A stretch of 64,000 nt of DNA from Rothia santali (GTDB lineage Bacteria; Actinomycetota; Actinomycetes; Actinomycetales; Micrococcaceae), in the NCBI RefSeq assembly GCF_024199905.1, contig NZ_JANAFB010000001.1:1-64000 (forward strand), read 5' to 3'. Below the pieces are notes generated by a model. It made no database searches, had not been told where the DNA came from, and was given only the letters and a program-made list of their open reading frames with translations. Positions 24,687 to 32,890 of the stretch are shown here, piece after piece. The position numbers and the translations under genes were made by a program. Positions within the stretch are counted from its first letter, which is position 1. Each line of letters opens with the position of its first letter.

Positions 24687-25113
24687 TTTGCATGCGACCA
24701 GCGCATAACAGGAGGGTTAGACACTACTGGTGAATCGCCCCGGGGATTGATTGCGGGGCCCTTCGAGCGCCACCGGTAAGAGCAAAACCCGGGTGCCTGC
24801 AACGGCAGTTCCCCGGTGCGGGCCATCCTAAGATCTCACCCTCCCCTGGGTCGATCAGCGATGAGGCGTCACCCACAAATGCCCAGTCAGTGCCAGAGAC
24901 GATAGGGGCTGAATGCGACCAAAAGCCGGATCTCACATGCATGAACGCCCATTGTGGCATGCAGTGTTGACCGATCAGCAGGCACCAGGCCCCTAGGACT
25001 CCTCAAGCGGAACGCTTCCTCTGCGAGCGCGTGATCCACCCGCTCATCCTTGCGTAACGGCGATATGGCAGGATGTGCGTTACAGCATAAGCTCGCTGGG
25101 AAAGGATGATCCG
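24687..25113. other. Intergenic island boundary with dyads and an IS-end-like stretch
   Basis: This 427-bp spacer shows no convincing gene. TGGTGAATCGCCCCGG at 24728-24743 recalls the terminal repeats of IS3-type elements in related bacteria (from memory, unverified), and base composition becomes AT-richer from here on. Two dyads precede the next gene: AAGCG-GAA-CGCTT at 25005-25017, and GTAACG (25054-25059) with CGTTAC (25078-25083) 18 bp apart. They are candidate operators. A start-to-stop frame at 24724-24960 on the minus strand resembles nothing I know. Confidence 0.4.
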
Positions 25114-26379
25114 ATGCTCGACTTCCCGAGGGGCCACCGGCCCCGCTACCGTGACTTCTCCCTCCAAGCCATCTCCGACGAGACGATTCGCGAAGGCGGT
25201 GAACGTGCCATCTACGGCGCTGCGGATACCGACAAGATCCGCCTCGTCGAGAAGCTGTCCCAAGCTGGTATTAAGGACATCGACGTGGGATCCGGTCTTC
25301 ACGAGGCTCAATTCCTGCGTAAGCTTCTTCTCCTGCAGGAATCAGCTGACTCCATCACCGACGACACGACCTTTTCCTTCAACCTGACGCTCAAGACCTG
25401 GGAACCACTGGTCGAGAAGCTCGAGCAGGAGGTTCCGCGCGAGCTCCTGAAGCGCATATACGTCAGCATCGGCATGATCGAGATCGACTCCGAGCGGCGT
25501 CTATTCGAGCGGGTCGCCCAGCGTCTCAGAGACATCGGAGTCGGCAAGATTCGCGCGAGTCTTCTCAACGCGTTCTCTACCGAGATCGACGAGGACGACT
25601 ACGGTCACCTGATGGCTCAGATCGAACGCGCCCGCGCAATAGGCGTCAGTCTCATCAGGATCAACGACTCGGTCGGCACGCTCTATCCGGATTCCACAGC
25701 GGTCCTGGCGGCGAATCTCGTGCACGACAATCCAGACACGACCTTCTATCTGCACGGTCACAATGATCGCGGGCTCGGAACGGCAAACTCCCTGGTGAGC
25801 GTGTTGCATGGCTTTCAGGTCATCGAAGGCGGTGTTGCCGGCACCGGCAATCGGGCGGGGCTCGCGGAGCTGGAGTCCATTGCACGCTGTCTCGAGGAGA
25901 ACAACATCAGCGTGAGCACTGGCCCGGTGGACGTCGATGGAGTCATCGCTGCCGCCCGGTTCTCCGAACGTGTTTACCTCACCGTGCCGACGCCGTATAG
26001 GGCTGTTAGCGGCTTCCTGGTCAAGAATGAAAACGCCGGAATCGTCAATGTTCCCGATTATCTCGGGGTCTCCCGGCCCGTCGACTACTTCCTCAATCGA
26101 ATCGGGCTCTTCCCCGAGTATCTGCGGCAGATCCTCGTGGAGGGCGGCATCAGCGAGAACTCATTGAGCGACGCTGTGCTAGCGCAGGTGTACAACAGGT
26201 TGCAGGCTCGCTTCGACACCCAGCACACCTCCAAGCTCGCCGAGTACGAACGGCTCGTCGCGCAGATCTGGGACTTCCACGACGACATCGTGAGGCTTCC
26301 CGATGTCGTCGACATCGCCAAGATCGTGCTCCAGGAACAGCCGTTGGAGACGTCCACGATGTCCGAGGCGCGAGCATGA
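25114..26379 (+). CDS. DRE-TIM metallolyase (isopropylmalate/homocitrate synthase-like)
   Basis: A 421-residue enzyme with the TIM-barrel Claisen-condensation fold that joins an acyl-CoA to a 2-oxo acid. Residues 22-30 (DETIREGGE) align with the DTTLRDGEQ motif but carry Glu where the metal-binding Asp normally sits. HGHNDRG (214-220) supplies the HxH metal ligands, INDSVGTLYP (183-192) the usual DTxG strand, and GTGNRAGLAELE the usual GERAGN motif. The C-terminal 120 residues do not look like the leucine-sensing LeuA domain. ATG 25114 follows AAAGGA by seven bases. It overlaps the next gene as ATGA. Composition is visibly lower in GC than flanking core genes. The product is unknown; a dedicated 2-alkylmalate-like intermediate is one possibility. 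Confidence 0.75.
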   Translation: MLDFPRGHRPRYRDFSLQAISDETIREGGERAIYGAADTDKIRLVEKLSQAGIKDIDVGSGLHEAQFLRKLLLLQESADSITDDTTFSFNLTLKTWEPLVEKLEQEVPRELLKRIYVSIGMIEIDSERRLFERVAQRLRDIGVGKIRASLLNAFSTEIDEDDYGHLMAQIERARAIGVSLIRINDSVGTLYPDSTAVLAANLVHDNPDTTFYLHGHNDRGLGTANSLVSVLHGFQVIEGGVAGTGNRAGLAELESIARCLEENNISVSTGPVDVDGVIAAARFSERVYLTVPTPYRAVSGFLVKNENAGIVNVPDYLGVSRPVDYFLNRIGLFPEYLRQILVEGGISENSLSDAVLAQVYNRLQARFDTQHTSKLAEYERLVAQIWDFHDDIVRLPDVVDIAKIVLQEQPLETSTMSEARA

Positions 26380-27305
26380 GTATCGTGGTCTACGGGGCGG
26401 GAAGCCTCGGTTTGTATCTGGCGGCACGTCTCGCCCAGGCTGGTGAAGAGGTCGTCCTCAAAGTGCGTGAGATGTCGGGCGACCACGGTCGCGGCGAAAC
26501 CCTCAGGATTCTCACTCACGAGGGGATTGAGGATGTGACCGGGGTGCGGAACGTGGAATCCCTCGCAGGAGTGAAGGCTGACGCTGCGATCGTCACCACC
26601 AAGGCCTGGCAGGTCGGTGAGGCCGCCCGGGACCTGGCCGCGGCGCTTCCCCCGGAGGCACCCGTCCTCACAACCCAGAACGGCATCGACGCACCGACGT
26701 CCGCGCGGGGTCACCTCCGGGACGAGCAGGTCCTCGCCAGCACCGTGGTCGTCATCGCGACCCGAGTAGCACCCCTGGCCGTTCGCCTGATCGGCCCCGA
26801 CGCGTCGCTGACGGTGGGCAGCCCGTCCGGCCGGAGGGCGTCGTCTGCACGGGGACTCACGGACGCGCTCTCCGCGGCGGGTCTCACCATGAGCTGGACC
26901 GATGACATCACCGCGGCTCTGTGGAAGAAGCTCGCGTTGATCTGCTCGTACGGTGGCGTGGGAGCCATCGTCGACGCGACGGTCGGCGAGACCCGCGCGG
27001 ATGCGCGCACTAGGAGGCTGGTCTCTCAGGCCATGCGCGAGGTCTTCGCTGTCGCAGCGGCCGAGGGGGTGCGGCTGACCCAGGAGGATCTCGACGACGT
27101 CTCCGAGGTGTACCTGACGGGCTTCGCCCCGGGGACGACCTCGTCGATGCATCGAGACCTGCTGGCGGGCCGTCCCTCCGAGCTCGAAGACCAGGTCGGT
27201 GCGGTCGTGCACCGAGCCGAGCGACTCTGCGTGCCCACTCCCGTCCTGGACACGATCTACGCGGCCATGGCCCCGCGTGAGGCACGAGCTCGAGCCCGCC
27301 GATGA
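26376..27305 (+). CDS. Ketopantoate reductase-like (PanE/ApbA) NADP-dependent enzyme
   Basis: A 309-residue two-domain reductase. The N-terminal Rossmann motif GAGSLGLYLAARL (residues 8-20) binds NADP. TTKAWQVGEAA, LTTQNGIDAP, and the helical-domain motifs ALWKKLALICSYGGVGA (with the catalytic Lys) and SSMHRDLLAGRPSELED are characteristic of PanE/ApbA. It would reduce a 2-oxo acid with an alpha substituent. Overlap with the preceding synthase-like gene by four bases (ATGA) argues that the two act on one pathway, so the true substrate may be an analogue of ketopantoate. Confidence 0.85.
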   Translation: MSIVVYGAGSLGLYLAARLAQAGEEVVLKVREMSGDHGRGETLRILTHEGIEDVTGVRNVESLAGVKADAAIVTTKAWQVGEAARDLAAALPPEAPVLTTQNGIDAPTSARGHLRDEQVLASTVVVIATRVAPLAVRLIGPDASLTVGSPSGRRASSARGLTDALSAAGLTMSWTDDITAALWKKLALICSYGGVGAIVDATVGETRADARTRRLVSQAMREVFAVAAAEGVRLTQEDLDDVSEVYLTGFAPGTTSSMHRDLLAGRPSELEDQVGAVVHRAERLCVPTPVLDTIYAAMAPREARARARR

Positions 27306-27328
27306 GACGCCCCGGCCCTCGGGGTGTC

Positions 27329-27342
27329 TATCCTGGGGGGCA
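27329..27342 (+). promoter_or_regulatory. -10-like TATCCT for leaderless expression of the CGNR gene
   Basis: TATCCT at 27329-27334 is followed by seven bases before ATG 27342. The G-run between them abuts the start codon and is badly placed for a ribosome site. Confidence 0.35.
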
Positions 27343-27884
27343 TGCCGCTGCATGTGCCCCAGATTCCAGTCCAGACCGTTGTCGAGTTCGTCAACGAATG
27401 GGCAGCCGTGCCCCAGGAGGTCTCGACACGAGCGTGGGAGGGATACCCGGCGTGGGAGTCCGAGCCCCGTCGGGTCCTGCGGTCGGTATGGCCCCCGGGG
27501 ATCGCAGAGCCGAACGACGCACTGGTCGCCACGGCGTGCGATCGCGTGTACCCCGTATTCACGGGCGCATGGCCCGGATCCATCGTGGAGCGACTCAACA
27601 CGGCGTTCGACGAGGCGGGGTTGAGGCCGCGCTTGGATGTCAACGACGAGGTGGTCCATCTGACGTGGGTTACCGATCGGCCGGAACGACTGATGTTCGC
27701 CGTCCTGGTGGCGTCGCTGGTCGCCCATGTCGGTCGGGTGCCTCGGGATCGGCTGGGCATCTGCGAATCCTCCGCGTGCGCCGACGTCTTGATCGACCGG
27801 TCGCCGACGCGGACCAAGCACTACTGCTCGGCTCGCTGCCAGACCCGCGAACGAGTCAAGGCGTACCGGGCTCGCACGTCCTAA
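27342..27884 (+). CDS. CGNR zinc-finger protein (ABATE/DUF1470 type)
   Basis: A 180-residue protein. The C-terminal CGNR zinc finger is clear: CESSACADVLIDRSPTRTK then HYCSARCQTRERVKAYR, giving four cysteines around a basic segment that probably binds DNA or RNA. The N-terminal 120 residues correspond to the putative stress-sensing half of this family, which often acts as a transcription regulator. It follows the reductase gene closely and precedes a transporter gene, so it may regulate the island. GTG 27324 is an alternative start. Confidence 0.8.
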   Translation: MPLHVPQIPVQTVVEFVNEWAAVPQEVSTRAWEGYPAWESEPRRVLRSVWPPGIAEPNDALVATACDRVYPVFTGAWPGSIVERLNTAFDEAGLRPRLDVNDEVVHLTWVTDRPERLMFAVLVASLVAHVGRVPRDRLGICESSACADVLIDRSPTRTKHYCSARCQTRERVKAYRARTS

Positions 27885-27902
27885 CGCCAGCGCCGCGGTG
27901 GC

Positions 27903-28889
27903 ATGGCCGGGCGAGCGCCAGGATCCACCGTGCTTAGCGCTCTCACCGCGATCGGCCCCCTGTTCGCGGTGCTCGCCATCGGCGGCATGGCGAGCGTCTC
28001 TTCCAGGATGCGTGCCATCGGGCCCTCGTTGACGGTCTTCGTCCTCACCTTCGCCCTTCCGGCATTCCTATTCAACGCGGTGACCTCGGCCCCTGTGCGG
28101 GAGGGGATTCCCTGGACCTTCACAGCGATCGCCTTCGGGGTCACCGCGCTCATGTCGACGCTGACCTGGGTCTCCGGACGACTCCTCGGAGCCGGATCGG
28201 GTGGGGTCGCCGCTCCGCTGGCACTGGCCGTCGGGTATGGAAACGTCGGGTACATGGGCGTGCCCATCACGCTCAGCGTCCTGGGTCCCGAGGCGGGGCT
28301 GGCCGCTGCGATGGGTCAGCTCATCCACAACGTGATGTTCATGCTCGGCTATCCCTTGGCGAGAATGCTGTCTCCGGACCGGGGTGGGGACGTCTCGGTG
28401 CGGAAGATGCTGTGGACGGCCGCTCGCAAGGCGATCCTGACGAATCCGGTGACCTTGAGCGTCGCCGCGGGCGTCGGAGTCTCTCTGCTGGGGGTGAGAC
28501 TTCCCGCAATGGCCGTCGACACCCTCGAACTCGTGGGCCAGGTCGCGGTGCCCCTAGCGATGTTCGTCGTCGGCCTCTCCCTCCCCACCGTAGGCGCGGG
28601 GCTCAGGGATGGCTCCGTTCCACGGATTCCTCTCGCCATCGGCACAGCGATCAAGCTGCTCCTGCTGCCGGTGGCGACGGTGGCAGCCCTGGCCGTCCTC
28701 GACCCTCGAATGGGCCAGCCGTGGGCGTCCACGCTCATCCTCATGGCGGCCATGCCCACCTCCACCACCGCCTTCATCCTCTCCCAGCAGGAGGACCGCG
28801 ACCCTCGCCTCGTATCGGGGATGATCGCGACGACCTCGTTGCTCGGGGTGGTGACGATACCGACCGTCTTGGCGTTGTTCGTTTCATGA
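27903..28889 (+). CDS. AEC-family (auxin efflux carrier-like) transporter
   Basis: A 328-residue membrane protein with about ten hydrophobic segments in two inverted halves, as in auxin efflux carrier-like permeases, which move organic acids. GYGNVGYMGVPITLSVLG near residue 120 is the signature discontinuous helix of the family, and AAMPTSTTAFILSQQ near residue 282 is its counterpart in the second half. ATG 27903 lies 18 bp after the CGNR stop; GTG 27930 is an alternative. It probably exports or imports the carboxylic acid made by the two upstream enzymes. Confidence 0.85.
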   Translation: MAGRAPGSTVLSALTAIGPLFAVLAIGGMASVSSRMRAIGPSLTVFVLTFALPAFLFNAVTSAPVREGIPWTFTAIAFGVTALMSTLTWVSGRLLGAGSGGVAAPLALAVGYGNVGYMGVPITLSVLGPEAGLAAAMGQLIHNVMFMLGYPLARMLSPDRGGDVSVRKMLWTAARKAILTNPVTLSVAAGVGVSLLGVRLPAMAVDTLELVGQVAVPLAMFVVGLSLPTVGAGLRDGSVPRIPLAIGTAIKLLLLPVATVAALAVLDPRMGQPWASTLILMAAMPTSTTAFILSQQEDRDPRLVSGMIATTSLLGVVTIPTVLALFVS

Positions 28890-28897
28890 CTATCGGG

Positions 28898-28909
28898 GAA
28901 ACGCGTTTC
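28898..28909. other. Short palindrome between convergent genes
   Basis: GAAACGCGTTTC is a perfect 12-bp palindrome nine bases after the transporter stop. It may be part of a weak terminator or a protein site. The remaining 99 bp to the next stop codon show nothing else. Confidence 0.35.
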
Positions 28910-29008
28910 TGAGCAGTGCGGGGGTCGGACGGCTGCGAGCGCTCGGCGATCCGGCCAAAGTCAGGTTCCCAGGCAGCCTCGCCTTCTCGGTCGTCCGGAA
29001 CGCCCCCA

Positions 29009-30598
29009 CTATCTCTCAGGTCGTTCCTTCCCGGGCAGAAGAAACATGCCGACCAGGAGGCTGAGAGCAAGGACCCCGCAGGCCACCCAGATTCCGAGGT
29101 GGAACGCATCGAGGAAGGCTGTCTCAGCCTCGCCGAGAACGGCCGCCGCGGTATCGGCGTCCATCTCGGCCGCGTCCCTGACCGCGGTGAGGGTCTGGGA
29201 GAGAGATTGATCCGCGCTCGCGGGCAGATCGGCGTGGAGGTTCCCGAGGGAAGGTCCGATGCGCGCCCGGTACTCCAGCGAGTACACGGCGCCGAGGACT
29301 GCGATCCCCACGATGGACATGACGCCGCGGATGGTGTTGATCAACCCGGCACCGGACCCGGCGCGAGCATCGTCGATCTCACCCATGGTCAGCGTGGTCG
29401 TCGCGCCCATGGTGATGCCCATGCCCAGACCCGCGGCGCCGAAGGCGATCTCGATCCAGGCCTGGTGGGTGCCGGCCTCGGCGACGCCGAACAGGCCCAA
29501 TCCGAAGGCGAGGAGCAGCGTCGCCCCACTCACGGTCGCTTGGGCGCCGAGGGCCTGCATGAGCCAGCCGGCGACAAGCGCTCCCAGGATGGCGCCGACG
29601 GCGACGGGAAGCATGGACAGGCCGAGTTCCCCGGGTGACTGACCACGGACGAGTTGAATGTAGAACACGAGCAGGAACGTCCCGCCGGTCAGCGCGAAGT
29701 ACGCCAGCGACACGGACAGGGTGCCGGCGGCGAAGGAACGGTGACACAATAGGCCGACGTCGAGCATGGGCGCGAGCCGACGACGCTCGACGACGACGAG
29801 GAGGATGAGGAGGACGAGCCCGAGGGCGACCGTCCCGGCCGTCTCCCATGCCGCCCACCGTCCGGTCTCGCCACCCCGGATAAGACCGAAGACCAACGCG
29901 CCGACGCCCGCGGTGGACAGGAGGATGCCGGCGACGTCGAGCCGAGCCCCGGTGGGCCGCTTCGACTCCGGCGTGGCCTTGGCGATGACGGCGAGGCATG
30001 CGGCGACGATCGGCACGTTGATGAGGAAGACGCTCCACCAGGGGAACCCCTGAACAAGGACCCCACCGAGGACGGGCCCGACGGCGACGGACGCGCCCCC
30101 GACGGCCGACCACACTCCCATCGCGCGAGCCTGGCGGCCCTCGGGGAAGACGTGCTTGATGATCGCGAGCGTCGTGGCCGGCACCACCGAGCCGCCGATG
30201 CCCATGACGACACGCCACGTGACGATCTGGCCCGCCGTAGCGGAGGTCGCCATGAGCGCCGAGCCGAGGAGGAAAACGACGAGGCCCAGGATCAGGACGC
30301 GATTGCGTCCGTACCGGTCCGCGAGGAACCCGGCCGGGAGCAGCAGCGCGGCGTAGAAGATCTCGTAGCCGCTGACCATCCACTGCAGCTGCGCGTTCGA
30401 GGCGTCGAAGTCCTCCTGGATGGTCTGGAGGGCGACGTTGATGATCGAGTAGTCCATCATCACGACGAGATACGCGGTGGCCACGGCGGCCAAGATCCAT
30501 CCGGTGGGGACGGGGGTGCCGATGGGTGCTGGGCCTCCATCGGGCGCTGGGCCACCACTGGTGACATGGGGAGAGCTCGGGTCGGCTTGATCGGACAT
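29009..30598 (-). CDS. DHA2-family (EmrB/QacA-type) multidrug exporter
   Basis: A 529-residue, 14-helix MFS drug:proton antiporter. A Pro/Gly-rich cytoplasmic tail of about 30 residues precedes helix 1, with MDYSIINVAL (motif D1-like, including the conserved Asp). LADRYGRNRVL is loop 2-3 motif A, and GVWSAVGGASVAVGPVLGGVL is motif C of exporters. ATG 30598 was chosen as the first start after the regulatory region. It is divergent from a TetR regulator, with a perfect 16-bp palindrome between them, so it is probably repressed by that protein and induced by its ligand. Confidence 0.9.
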   Translation of the reverse strand: MSDQADPSSPHVTSGGPAPDGGPAPIGTPVPTGWILAAVATAYLVVMMDYSIINVALQTIQEDFDASNAQLQWMVSGYEIFYAALLLPAGFLADRYGRNRVLILGLVVFLLGSALMATSATAGQIVTWRVVMGIGGSVVPATTLAIIKHVFPEGRQARAMGVWSAVGGASVAVGPVLGGVLVQGFPWWSVFLINVPIVAACLAVIAKATPESKRPTGARLDVAGILLSTAGVGALVFGLIRGGETGRWAAWETAGTVALGLVLLILLVVVERRRLAPMLDVGLLCHRSFAAGTLSVSLAYFALTGGTFLLVFYIQLVRGQSPGELGLSMLPVAVGAILGALVAGWLMQALGAQATVSGATLLLAFGLGLFGVAEAGTHQAWIEIAFGAAGLGMGITMGATTTLTMGEIDDARAGSGAGLINTIRGVMSIVGIAVLGAVYSLEYRARIGPSLGNLHADLPASADQSLSQTLTAVRDAAEMDADTAAAVLGEAETAFLDAFHLGIWVACGVLALSLLVGMFLLPGKERPER

Positions 30599-30732
30599 CG
30601 TGATGCGACGCTCCTTCGGCGCTGGTCCTCCGCGAGGGACTAGTAGGACGTGGGTGCAGAACCTTCTCGGACGGGCGAGGGGCGCAGCGGAATGCGCCGG
30701 CTCGCTCGCGTTGAGGGGAGGCTATCATTAAA

Positions 30733-30748
30733 TTAGATGGCCATCTAA
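30733..30748. promoter_or_regulatory. Palindromic operator between exporter and TetR genes
   Basis: TTAGATGGCCATCTAA is a perfect 16-bp palindrome in an AT-rich patch between the two divergent genes. Position and symmetry fit a TetR-family dimer site controlling both promoters. Confidence 0.75.
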
Positions 30749-30876
30749 AAATCTGAGGACGTCGACCGCGAGTCCCGACGGCGCCCCATGTCGGTTGACG
30801 TCCTGCCACCTCCTCGATGGGTAAGCTGAGGGCCGACGAAACGGCCGATGCAGAGTCGAGAGGGGGTGAGGCGCGG

Positions 30877-31584
30877 ATGCCGACTCGCCAACCACGCTCC
30901 GCCGCGACGCGCGACCTCATCCTCGACGCCGCCGCCGGCGAGTTCGCAAGTGCCGGCTACGGCGGCACCTCTCACGCGCGCATCCTCAAGGCGCTGGGCA
31001 AGAGCACGCCGAACTTCATCACCTACCACTTCCCGGCGAAGGCGGACCTCGCCCACGCGGTGCTCTCCCGTCAAGAGGAGCTGCTGCGCGCTGGCGTCGA
31101 CGGCCTGGAGCGGCGGGGGATCCCGGGTCTGGAGGCCCTCGTGGCCATCGTGTTCGTCGTCGTGACCGACGAGGAGAACATGCGAGTCTTCCGAGCCGCC
31201 ATGGCGCTGGAGAGCGACCGCACGGCACCCGCCGGGGGAGGCTCCCAGCCCTGCGCGACGTGGGTGGCGCTGGCGGAGCGTCAGCTGGGCCGGGCGCGGG
31301 AGGCCGGACAGCTGCCCCGGGCTGTGGACCTCGGCGACGAGGCCTGGACGATGGTCTCCGCTCTCTACGGCACCTATCAGCTCGCGGATCGCCTCGGCGC
31401 CTTGGACCGGCTCGCCCACCGTGTGGAGCAGGCGTGGCTCCCGCTGCTCGAGTCCCTCGGCGTCACCGATCCCGCCGCGCTCCTCGCGGCCGGCCGGCGG
31501 CACGCGCGCGAGTACCTCGCGGCCAGGGGCGCGGAGCCCATCCCGGCGACTCCGGAGGATCCCCGCCCAGACCGCGAGGCATGA
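30877..31584 (+). CDS. TetR-family regulator resembling gamma-butyrolactone receptors
   Basis: A 235-residue repressor. The N-terminal HTH covers residues 8-55: RDLILDAAAGEFASAGYGGTS, then ILKALGKSTPNFITYHFPAKADLAHAVLSRQEE. This spacing and the later WVALAERQLGRAREAGQLPRAVD and YGTYQLADRLGALDRLAHRVEQAWLPLL segments parallel ScbR/ArpA-type butyrolactone receptors more than generic TetR proteins. No AfsA-type synthase is nearby. ATG 30877 follows GGGGGTGAGG; an ATG 20 codons earlier lacks a good site. It probably represses the divergent exporter through the palindrome at 30733. Confidence 0.8.
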   Translation: MPTRQPRSAATRDLILDAAAGEFASAGYGGTSHARILKALGKSTPNFITYHFPAKADLAHAVLSRQEELLRAGVDGLERRGIPGLEALVAIVFVVVTDEENMRVFRAAMALESDRTAPAGGGSQPCATWVALAERQLGRAREAGQLPRAVDLGDEAWTMVSALYGTYQLADRLGALDRLAHRVEQAWLPLLESLGVTDPAALLAAGRRHAREYLAARGAEPIPATPEDPRPDREA

Positions 31585-31645
31585 GCCGGCCGGGTCTCAC
31601 CGCCCCGGCGCCCCGCGCCCCCAGACCACCTCAGAAAGCGACCGA

Positions 31646-32890
31646 GTGGACCCCAGCGACCCCAGCATCCAGCGCATCATCACCTCCTACTGGGACCACC
31701 GCGCCGCCGCCTACACCGCCGCCCAGCACCGCACCGAGCGCGAGGAGCTGGACCGCGGCCTCTGGGTGGCGGTGTGGCGCTCGGCCCTGCCCGCCCCGCC
31801 GGCCGACGTCCTGGACCTCGGCACCGGCGGCGGCCACGCGGCGATCCTGCTCGCCGAGCTGGGCTATTCGGTCACCGCCACCGACCTCTCCCACGGCATG
31901 CTGGACCAGGCCCGCGCCCGCGCGGCCGGCCTGGCGGACCCGCCCCGCTTCGCCCTCGACGACGCCGTCCGCCCCACCCAGCCGCACCGCTCCTTCGACG
32001 CCGTCACCAGCCGGTACCTCGCCTGGACCCTCCGGGAGCCCGAGGCCGCCCTGCGCCGCTGGCACCGCCTCCTGCGGCCCGGCGGGACCCTGGCCCTGGT
32101 CGACGCCTCGTGGTTCCCCCGCGGGATCGACGCGAACCCCACCGAGGGCTTCGCCGAGCACTACCGCCCGGAGGTCAGGGAGCACCTGCCGCTGGCCGAG
32201 GCGCAGGGCATCGAGGAGACCGCCGCCGTCCTGGAGCGCGCGGGATTCCGCGACGTCGAACTGACGCCCCTGCGCGAGGTGCTCGAGGCCGACCGGCGCT
32301 GGGGCACGGTCCCCGGCCACGAGCCGCGCCTGCAGCACCTGATCACCGGGCGGGCCCGGCGCTATGGCGTGCGCCGGGCCGGGGCGGGCGACGTCGAGGC
32401 GATGCGCGCTGTCGAGCGGGCCGCGGGGGAGTCCTTCCGCGCCCTGGGCATGGAGCCCGTGGCCGACGACGCGCCGCCGGCCGCGGAGGAGCTGGCGCGT
32501 CACATCGCGGCCGGGCTCGCCTGGGTGGTCGAGGAGGACACGGCTCGGGGACGGGCGGGTGCCGCCGGGTACCTCGTCGCGGAATGGCTCGAGGGGTCAC
32601 TGCACGTCGAGCAGGTCAGCGTGGACCCCGCCCACGGCGGGCTGGGGCTCGGCGAGCTGCTCCTCGAGCGCGCGGACCGGGAGGCCCGGGCTCTGGGGTG
32701 CGGAGAGCTGACCCTGACGACCTTCGCCGAGGTCCCGTGGAACGCGCCGTACTACGAGCGCCTCGGCTTCGAGCGGCTCGACGACGCGCGGGCGGATCCG
32801 GAGCTCCTCCGGATCCGCCGGGCCGAGGCGTCCCACGGACTCGACCGCTGGCCCCGGACGATCATGCGGCGCGCCGCCGACGGGCGATGA
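31646..32890 (+). CDS. Fusion of SAM-dependent methyltransferase and GNAT acetyltransferase
   Basis: A 414-residue two-domain protein. Residues 1-235 are a class I methyltransferase with motif I VLDLGTGGGHAAIL (55-68), the TDLSHGMLDQARARA acidic loop and the RWHRLLRPGGTLALVD block. Residues 240-414 are a GNAT N-acetyltransferase with VEQVSVDPAHGGLGLGELLLERA as the acetyl-CoA motif A and NAPYYERLGFERL as motif B. GTG 31646 is the likely start; its ribosome site is poor. It follows the TetR gene by 61 bp and could be co-transcribed. Both activities on one molecule suggest modification of a small compound, possibly the exporter's substrate. The substrate is unknown. Confidence 0.8.
   Translation: MDPSDPSIQRIITSYWDHRAAAYTAAQHRTEREELDRGLWVAVWRSALPAPPADVLDLGTGGGHAAILLAELGYSVTATDLSHGMLDQARARAAGLADPPRFALDDAVRPTQPHRSFDAVTSRYLAWTLREPEAALRRWHRLLRPGGTLALVDASWFPRGIDANPTEGFAEHYRPEVREHLPLAEAQGIEETAAVLERAGFRDVELTPLREVLEADRRWGTVPGHEPRLQHLITGRARRYGVRRAGAGDVEAMRAVERAAGESFRALGMEPVADDAPPAAEELARHIAAGLAWVVEEDTARGRAGAAGYLVAEWLEGSLHVEQVSVDPAHGGLGLGELLLERADREARALGCGELTLTTFAEVPWNAPYYERLGFERLDDARADPELLRIRRAEASHGLDRWPRTIMRRAADGR

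Follow-up and report, generated by a model that had tools for sequence, protein, structure and literature searches.

A predicted receptor-exporter gene pair of Rothia santali flanks acyl carrier protein and α-oxoamine synthase genes in two relatives

We analyzed a 64-kb stretch of the R. santali genome (hereafter the window; the first 64 kb of contig C11 in an assembly of 3.3 Mb and 84 contigs, 97.7% complete) in which a gene for a TetR-type regulator is transcribed away from a gene for an exporter. The exporter (529 amino acids; 29009-30598, minus strand) is of the DHA2 type of the major facilitator superfamily; it matches MFS_1 (PF07690) with an E value of 5.6e-52, and its top NCBIfam model is DHA2/EmrB (TIGR00711), at 208.3 bits, below the cut-off of 230.2 bits. 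The regulator (235 amino acids; 30877-31584, plus strand; TetR_N, E 3.6e-7) resembles autoregulator receptors, and its start was placed at 30877 in preference to 30817 because the N terminus from there aligns with those of both relatives described below. The two genes are separated by 278 bp (30599-30876) containing a perfect 16-bp palindrome, TTAGATGGCCATCTAA (30733-30748), which is conserved at two related loci and which we treat as a putative operator; it lies 134 bp from the exporter start codon. Downstream of the regulator is a methyltransferase-GNAT fusion gene (31646-32890, plus strand), whose product carries the Pfam domains Methyltransf_11 (residues 56 to 150) and Acetyltransf_1 (residues 282 to 375). 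An earlier note on this DNA had described the same arrangement, with a TetR regulator facing a DHA2 exporter across a perfect 16-bp palindrome and followed by a bifunctional fusion gene, and all of these features are present.

A contig scan for the window regulator matched 9 loci, the only close ones being those of Rothia halotolerans (76%) and Brevibacterium luteolum (67%). Counting R. santali itself, matches occurred in 2 of 35 genomes of the genus (E 1e-20) and 2 of 396 genomes of the order (E 1e-25). The R. halotolerans locus is an intact unit, in which genes for an acyl carrier protein (ACP), an α-oxoamine synthase (AOS) and a DHA2 exporter 77.5% identical to that of the window run divergently from the TetR regulator, and the AOS stop codon abuts the exporter start. 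Its ACP and AOS match PP-binding and Aminotran_1_2, respectively, both above the Pfam cut-offs. B. luteolum has the same gene order, again with ACP and AOS between exporter and regulator. No gene separates the operator from the exporter in the window, and the gene maps place neither ACP nor AOS in the 278 bp where the relatives have them. The main discovery of this analysis is thus a comparative one: the predicted receptor-exporter pair flanks an ACP gene and an AOS gene in relatives, and the window is without both. A synthase relocated within the R. santali genome was rejected, as the top match to the R. halotolerans AOS there reaches only 32% (contig C8); no search was made for a relocated ACP. 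The suggestion in the earlier note that the signal may be made elsewhere gains an unexpected foothold in these maps, in that the AOS/ACP pair of the related loci is missing from the window; the source of the receptor's ligand is a guess.

AfsA, too, was considered as the missing partner. In a search that did not extend to Aco-type synthases, the AfsA family (PF03756) had 0 matches across the whole genomes of R. santali, R. halotolerans and B. luteolum, compared to 8 in a Streptomyces genome and 3 in an Actinomadura genome used as positive controls. The claim that no AfsA-type synthase is present therefore extends from the locus to the genome, and AfsA can be dismissed as the missing partner.

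What might the AOS make? The R. halotolerans enzyme belongs to the superfamily that includes serine palmitoyltransferase (SPT), KBL, BioF and CqsA, but it differs from these in falling below the cut-off for each of the best 25 of the 34 NCBIfam families matched and in its pairing with a TetR of receptor type and a DHA2 exporter. Among the matches listed, the nearest families are BioF (TIGR00858, 356.9 bits, cut-off 426.45), KBL (NF005394, 337.5 bits, cut-off 460) and SPT (NF047600, 324.2 bits, cut-off 640); the model for hydroxyketone autoinducer synthases of the CqsA type (NF005526) gave 195.8 bits, below 428. A close AOS was found in 1 of 394 genomes of the class at E 1e-110, that of B. luteolum. 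Otherwise the nearest among those found, at 54.9% identity, are carried by S. clavuligerus plasmids (3 records; L027, NZ_CP027859.1), in a neighborhood with an acyl-CoA dehydrogenase, a carrier protein and an adenylation enzyme that we read by eye as a carrier-protein pathway, apparently a small biosynthetic cluster; the sequence record carries no annotated features. A Streptomyces AOS with 47% identity, found in 1 of 246 genomes at E 1e-100 (L041, G900:C55), lies near acyl-AMP ligase-like, ACP-like (acyl carrier models below cut-off), epimerase-like and GNAT-like open reading frames (ORFs), mostly named by eye, a set that resembles bacterial sphingolipid gene sets. An acyl substrate bound to a carrier would be in keeping with both neighborhoods. 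The AOS SgaB of P. fluorescens is reported to have SPT activity (PMC12134224).

A second set of this kind occurs in the R. santali genome itself, on contig C8 (L042, 5328-8871), where an AOS, a DHA2-type exporter and a TetR gene stand side by side; in sequence this set is unrelated to the unit of the window. One other of the 297 genomes of the order has a similar set at E 1e-60 (L067, G049:C73, 4423-9151), composed of a DHA2-type exporter, a TetR gene, a short-chain dehydrogenase/reductase gene and an AOS, with a 24-bp perfect palindrome between exporter and TetR. The C8 and G049 AOSs are 27 to 30% identical to those of R. halotolerans, B. luteolum and S. clavuligerus (30% for C8 versus R. halotolerans), and the exporters of the two kinds of set are 30 to 32% identical. 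The combination of AOS, exporter and TetR may have come together on more than one occasion; since genes for exporters and TetR proteins are common, two cases are suggestive only. An AOS of Eleftheria terrae (L066, NZ_CP106952.1) that is 43.5% identical to the C8 enzyme lies beside methyltransferase, GNAT and small multidrug resistance (SMR) efflux genes.

The window regulator shares with the Streptomyces receptors ArpA, ScbR, CprB, AvaR1 and TylP a TetR fold, top matches in sequence and fold searches, and a pocket tryptophan with a proline four residues before it. Its top sequence matches in the PDB are 6srn, CprB, 5xaz (TylP) and AvaR1, where 6srn, like 7ky1, is MmfR. The best AlphaFold model of the regulator, built from an alignment of three sequences, has a moderate mean confidence (pLDDT 70.3, with 46 to 58 for the four others); searched with Foldseek, it places receptor-class entries (7ky1/6srn, CprB, TylP and AvaR1) in rows 1 to 34 of the best 50, ahead of SmeT and NalD. 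P125 and W129 of the window regulator align with P123 and W127 of the CprB ligand pocket. The pocket tryptophan was present in 11 of 11 receptor-type rows of the alignment versus 2 of 12 generic rows, and its combination with the proline at -4 in 9 of 11 versus 0 of 12; this is a small set with row labels assigned by us, and the 11 receptor-type rows include the window and its two relatives. A tryptophan of the CprB W127 type is reported to take a direct part in ligand binding, and in ArpA binding is reported to be abolished when W119 is mutated (PMC3461410).

The same regulator differs from the Streptomyces receptors in several respects. It scores 112.5 bits with the ScbR equivalog model NF041196 (118.1 for the R. 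halotolerans regulator; cut-off 150) and 23.8 bits with the autoregulator C-terminal domain PF21935 (cut-off 27). Together with its two relatives it carries a one-residue insert, GKSTPNFITYHF, in the recognition-helix region of the helix-turn-helix, which is absent from the other 20 of 20 rows; the recognition-helix stretch is identical in all three regulators, whereas the whole proteins are 67 to 74% identical. In our alignment it does not keep K43, Y47 and F48 of CprB, which are base-interacting residues mutated in the cited study, and its putative operator is a 16-bp palindrome, unlike the 22- to 24-bp sequences given there for ArpA and CprB operators (PMC4150764). No AfsA accompanies it, and the synthase linked to its relatives is an AOS with an ACP. 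A regulator phylogeny, proposed in the earlier note as a check against a generic drug-responsive clade, gave receptor-type rows as the nearest by path; 15 of 20 inner branches were open, with both full-length and C-domain-only alignments, deep support was weak, and the set contained no TetR of proven drug response, so that the tree neither places the regulator in such a clade nor keeps it out of one. Because matches, fold and tryptophan fit but the curated cut-offs are missed and the deep nodes are open, we call the regulator receptor-like rather than a member of the curated ScbR family; the butyrolactone-receptor-like character seen earlier is thus supported by the sequence and fold matches and the pocket, and ScbR membership is not. 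Two further regulators of the same genome (G000:C33:53948-54505 and G000:C3:70120-70689) pass the ScbR cut-off, with scores of 167.5 and 153.2 bits; the one on C33 adjoins ORFs that by eye look like an ATP-binding cassette transporter, in a genome without detected AfsA.

The putative operator and its flank are conserved upstream of the first operon gene. Both relatives have a counterpart of TTAGATGGCCATCTAA in the corresponding position before the ACP gene, with 15 of 16 positions identical in R. halotolerans and 13 of 16 in B. luteolum. A perfect 16-bp palindrome arose in the 278-bp intergenic stretch in 0.86% of 5,000 Markov resamplings, and the window has 6 such palindromes, where 60 Markov-resampled windows average 4.0. 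The palindrome by itself is weak evidence of an operator, and its conservation across species is the stronger argument. A pattern covering the three sites, TTAGAYGNNCRTCTAA, matches without mismatch at one place in each of the three genomes, and no second site was found in the R. santali genome at ≤1 or ≤2 mismatches. No wider regulon is thus seen, and since there is a single copy per genome in all three species, control by the regulator looks local. A perfect palindrome two mismatches from the pattern, TTAGACCGCGGTCTAA, occurs elsewhere in R. halotolerans (G009:C3:50635-50650), where no related gene was recognized in the nearby ORF list.

Was the ACP-AOS pair lost from the window or gained by its relatives? 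R. santali and R. halotolerans share the flanks of the locus, with NrdE/NrdF, PanE and CGNR genes on one side and SRPBCC and SulP genes on the other. By the NG86 method, the synonymous distance (dS) between their TetR genes is 0.50, within the range of 0.40 to 0.66 for the exporter and neighboring genes, compared to 1.28 and 1.33 for the distances to B. luteolum. Because B. luteolum acts as an outgroup by dS and has the ACP-AOS pair, and given the shared flanks, these comparisons favor loss in the window lineage. The ratios of nonsynonymous to synonymous distance (dN/dS) are below 1 for both retained genes (0.25 for the exporter and 0.34 for the regulator; 0.17 to 0.38 for neighbors), so that both look constrained.

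Our best explanation, to which we give an even chance, is that the window contains the sensing and exporting half of a small natural-product unit, a local switch for export of, and self-protection against, the AOS-ACP product, the synthase of which was lost. In the complete form, as laid out in R. halotolerans, an ACP-AOS-exporter operon is transcribed away from the receptor-type TetR gene. The ACP would carry an acyl group, which the pyridoxal phosphate-dependent AOS would condense with an amino acid to give an α-aminoketone; the product or a precursor would bind the receptor pocket, and the receptor would leave the TTAGAT-ATCTAA operator, allowing the exporter to be made. The window lineage would have lost ACP and AOS, leaving the operator before the exporter alone, and the switch could respond only to a compound made by a neighbor or to another ligand. 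The loss itself, binding of the operator, the nature of the ligand, export and protection are what we infer.

Several observations weigh against this explanation. The structural comparison relies on a regulator model of moderate confidence. An in-frame stop interrupts the B. luteolum AOS, and the exporter of that species carries a frameshift and is truncated, with the receptor and ACP frames still open; sequencing error is not excluded as the cause, and these breaks give export no special standing as the function that is conserved. The dN/dS ratios also span the time before the loss, and YN00 ran for only 3 of 11 pairs, giving a dS of 1.26 for the TetR genes of R. santali and R. halotolerans and no value for B. 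luteolum. In the protein tree, R. halotolerans groups with B. luteolum (94/78, not starred) and not with the window. No deletion remnant of ACP or AOS was found in the 278 bp, where a short-word blastn search matched the operator block and otherwise only 10 to 18 bases at E ≥0.07. At ≤2 mismatches, further TTAGAYGNNCRTCTAA sites appear in R. halotolerans (2) and B. luteolum (3), reversed-pattern controls giving 1 and 6, respectively, and 7 in the window genome, and a promoter scan did not find a sigma-70-like promoter.

Divergent TetR-DHA2 efflux pairs are known from the QacR/QacA and LfrR/LfrA types, and the window could hold an ordinary pair of this kind, sensing diverse toxic compounds and resembling receptors in fold alone. 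The divergent layout with a palindrome between the genes is as expected for such a pair, the operator and recognition helix are unlike those of the receptor family, and the score below the ScbR cut-off and weak deep tree support point the same way. However, receptor-class entries lead both the sequence and the fold searches, ahead of the SmeT and NalD regulators, and the relatives, which belong to different families, differ from the known efflux pairs in carrying two linked biosynthetic genes, ACP and AOS, inside the exporter operon. We therefore regard an ordinary drug-responsive pair as rather unlikely.

The AOS-ACP product might instead be a diffusible hormone with the receptor as its cognate sensor, so that R. 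santali would listen without producing. The receptor fold and pocket tryptophan agree with such a role, as does a receptor frame that all three species keep open, including those whose synthase is absent or disrupted. The single copy of the operator pattern in each genome, with no wider regulon seen, speaks against it and weakens the signaling module proposed in the earlier note, and the R. halotolerans AOS, far below the cut-off of the hydroxyketone autoinducer synthase model, scores higher on the BioF, KBL and SPT models. Hormone signaling is, on this balance, unlikely. For this unit, we consider a role in local export or self-protection likelier than one in hormone signaling, because there is one operator and the exporter is the only neighboring target retained.

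Because the protein tree groups the two synthase-bearing species, gain of ACP-AOS by R. halotolerans and B. luteolum, with the window as the ancestral receptor-exporter pair, has some claim, and it would also explain the lack of a remnant and be compatible with the other explanations, but it is doubtful in view of the dS values and shared flanks that group the window with R. halotolerans and of the need for a two-gene insertion exactly between operator and exporter.

The fusion gene downstream of the regulator is probably a neighbor and not a member of the unit. It is absent from the R. halotolerans and B. luteolum loci, and although matches were found in 20 of the 297 genomes of the order at E 1e-40 (R. 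santali included), the 19 others comprise essentially one half each (13 methyltransferase and 6 GNAT) and none is a fusion. The fusion was accordingly rejected as part of the unit, contrary to its earlier inclusion in the module, and no link to the product of the adjacent island, also proposed, was found: the 10 to 14 kb read in B. luteolum holds the receptor/exporter unit without island genes. On the exporter side, 25075-28889 encodes an HMGL-like enzyme overlapping a PanE-like reductase, a CGNR zinc finger protein and a Mem_trans carrier; R. halotolerans has PanE and CGNR here. The region 25075-31584 looks acquired, because the third-position GC of its six ORFs (0.77 to 0.87) is lower than that of the surrounding NrdE, NrdF, SRPBCC and SulP genes (0.96 to 1.00); the simple ORF caller also retained ORFs with values of 0.69 to 0.90 elsewhere in the window, some probably spurious.

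The complete unit recalls coelimycin and CpkF, described as a case of feedback by a pathway product with a dedicated exporter, under control of an intracellular product or precursor (PMC11632069). The two are alike in combining a biosynthetic unit and its own efflux pump with such control; they differ in that coelimycin is made by a polyketide cluster and the abstract gives its sensing regulator as unidentified (PMC11632069). Searches of the literature for AOS with TetR or ACP, Rothia receptors, AOS quorum sensing, AOS clusters and orphan receptors gave no matching unit among the papers listed, and the papers listed for alaremycin were unrelated; subscription journals lay mostly outside coverage, which makes this weak evidence of novelty. 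At its boldest, the comparison would make the AOS with its own ACP a kind of autoregulator synthase not described before, whose partner is a divergent branch of the butyrolactone receptor superfamily with its own operator, and R. santali a natural receptor-and-exporter mutant able to hear the signal, or detoxify it, while not producing it; we think this improbable. In streptomycetes, such hormone receptors are generally reported together with an AfsA or Aco synthase (PMC7670052). A relative from a Rothia-like genus, linked to the two genes of an AOS-ACP pair, would broaden the chemistry that these receptors may read, and as the unit is small (four genes and one operator) and two closely related species show it with and without the synthase, product, receptor and exporter could be tested directly.

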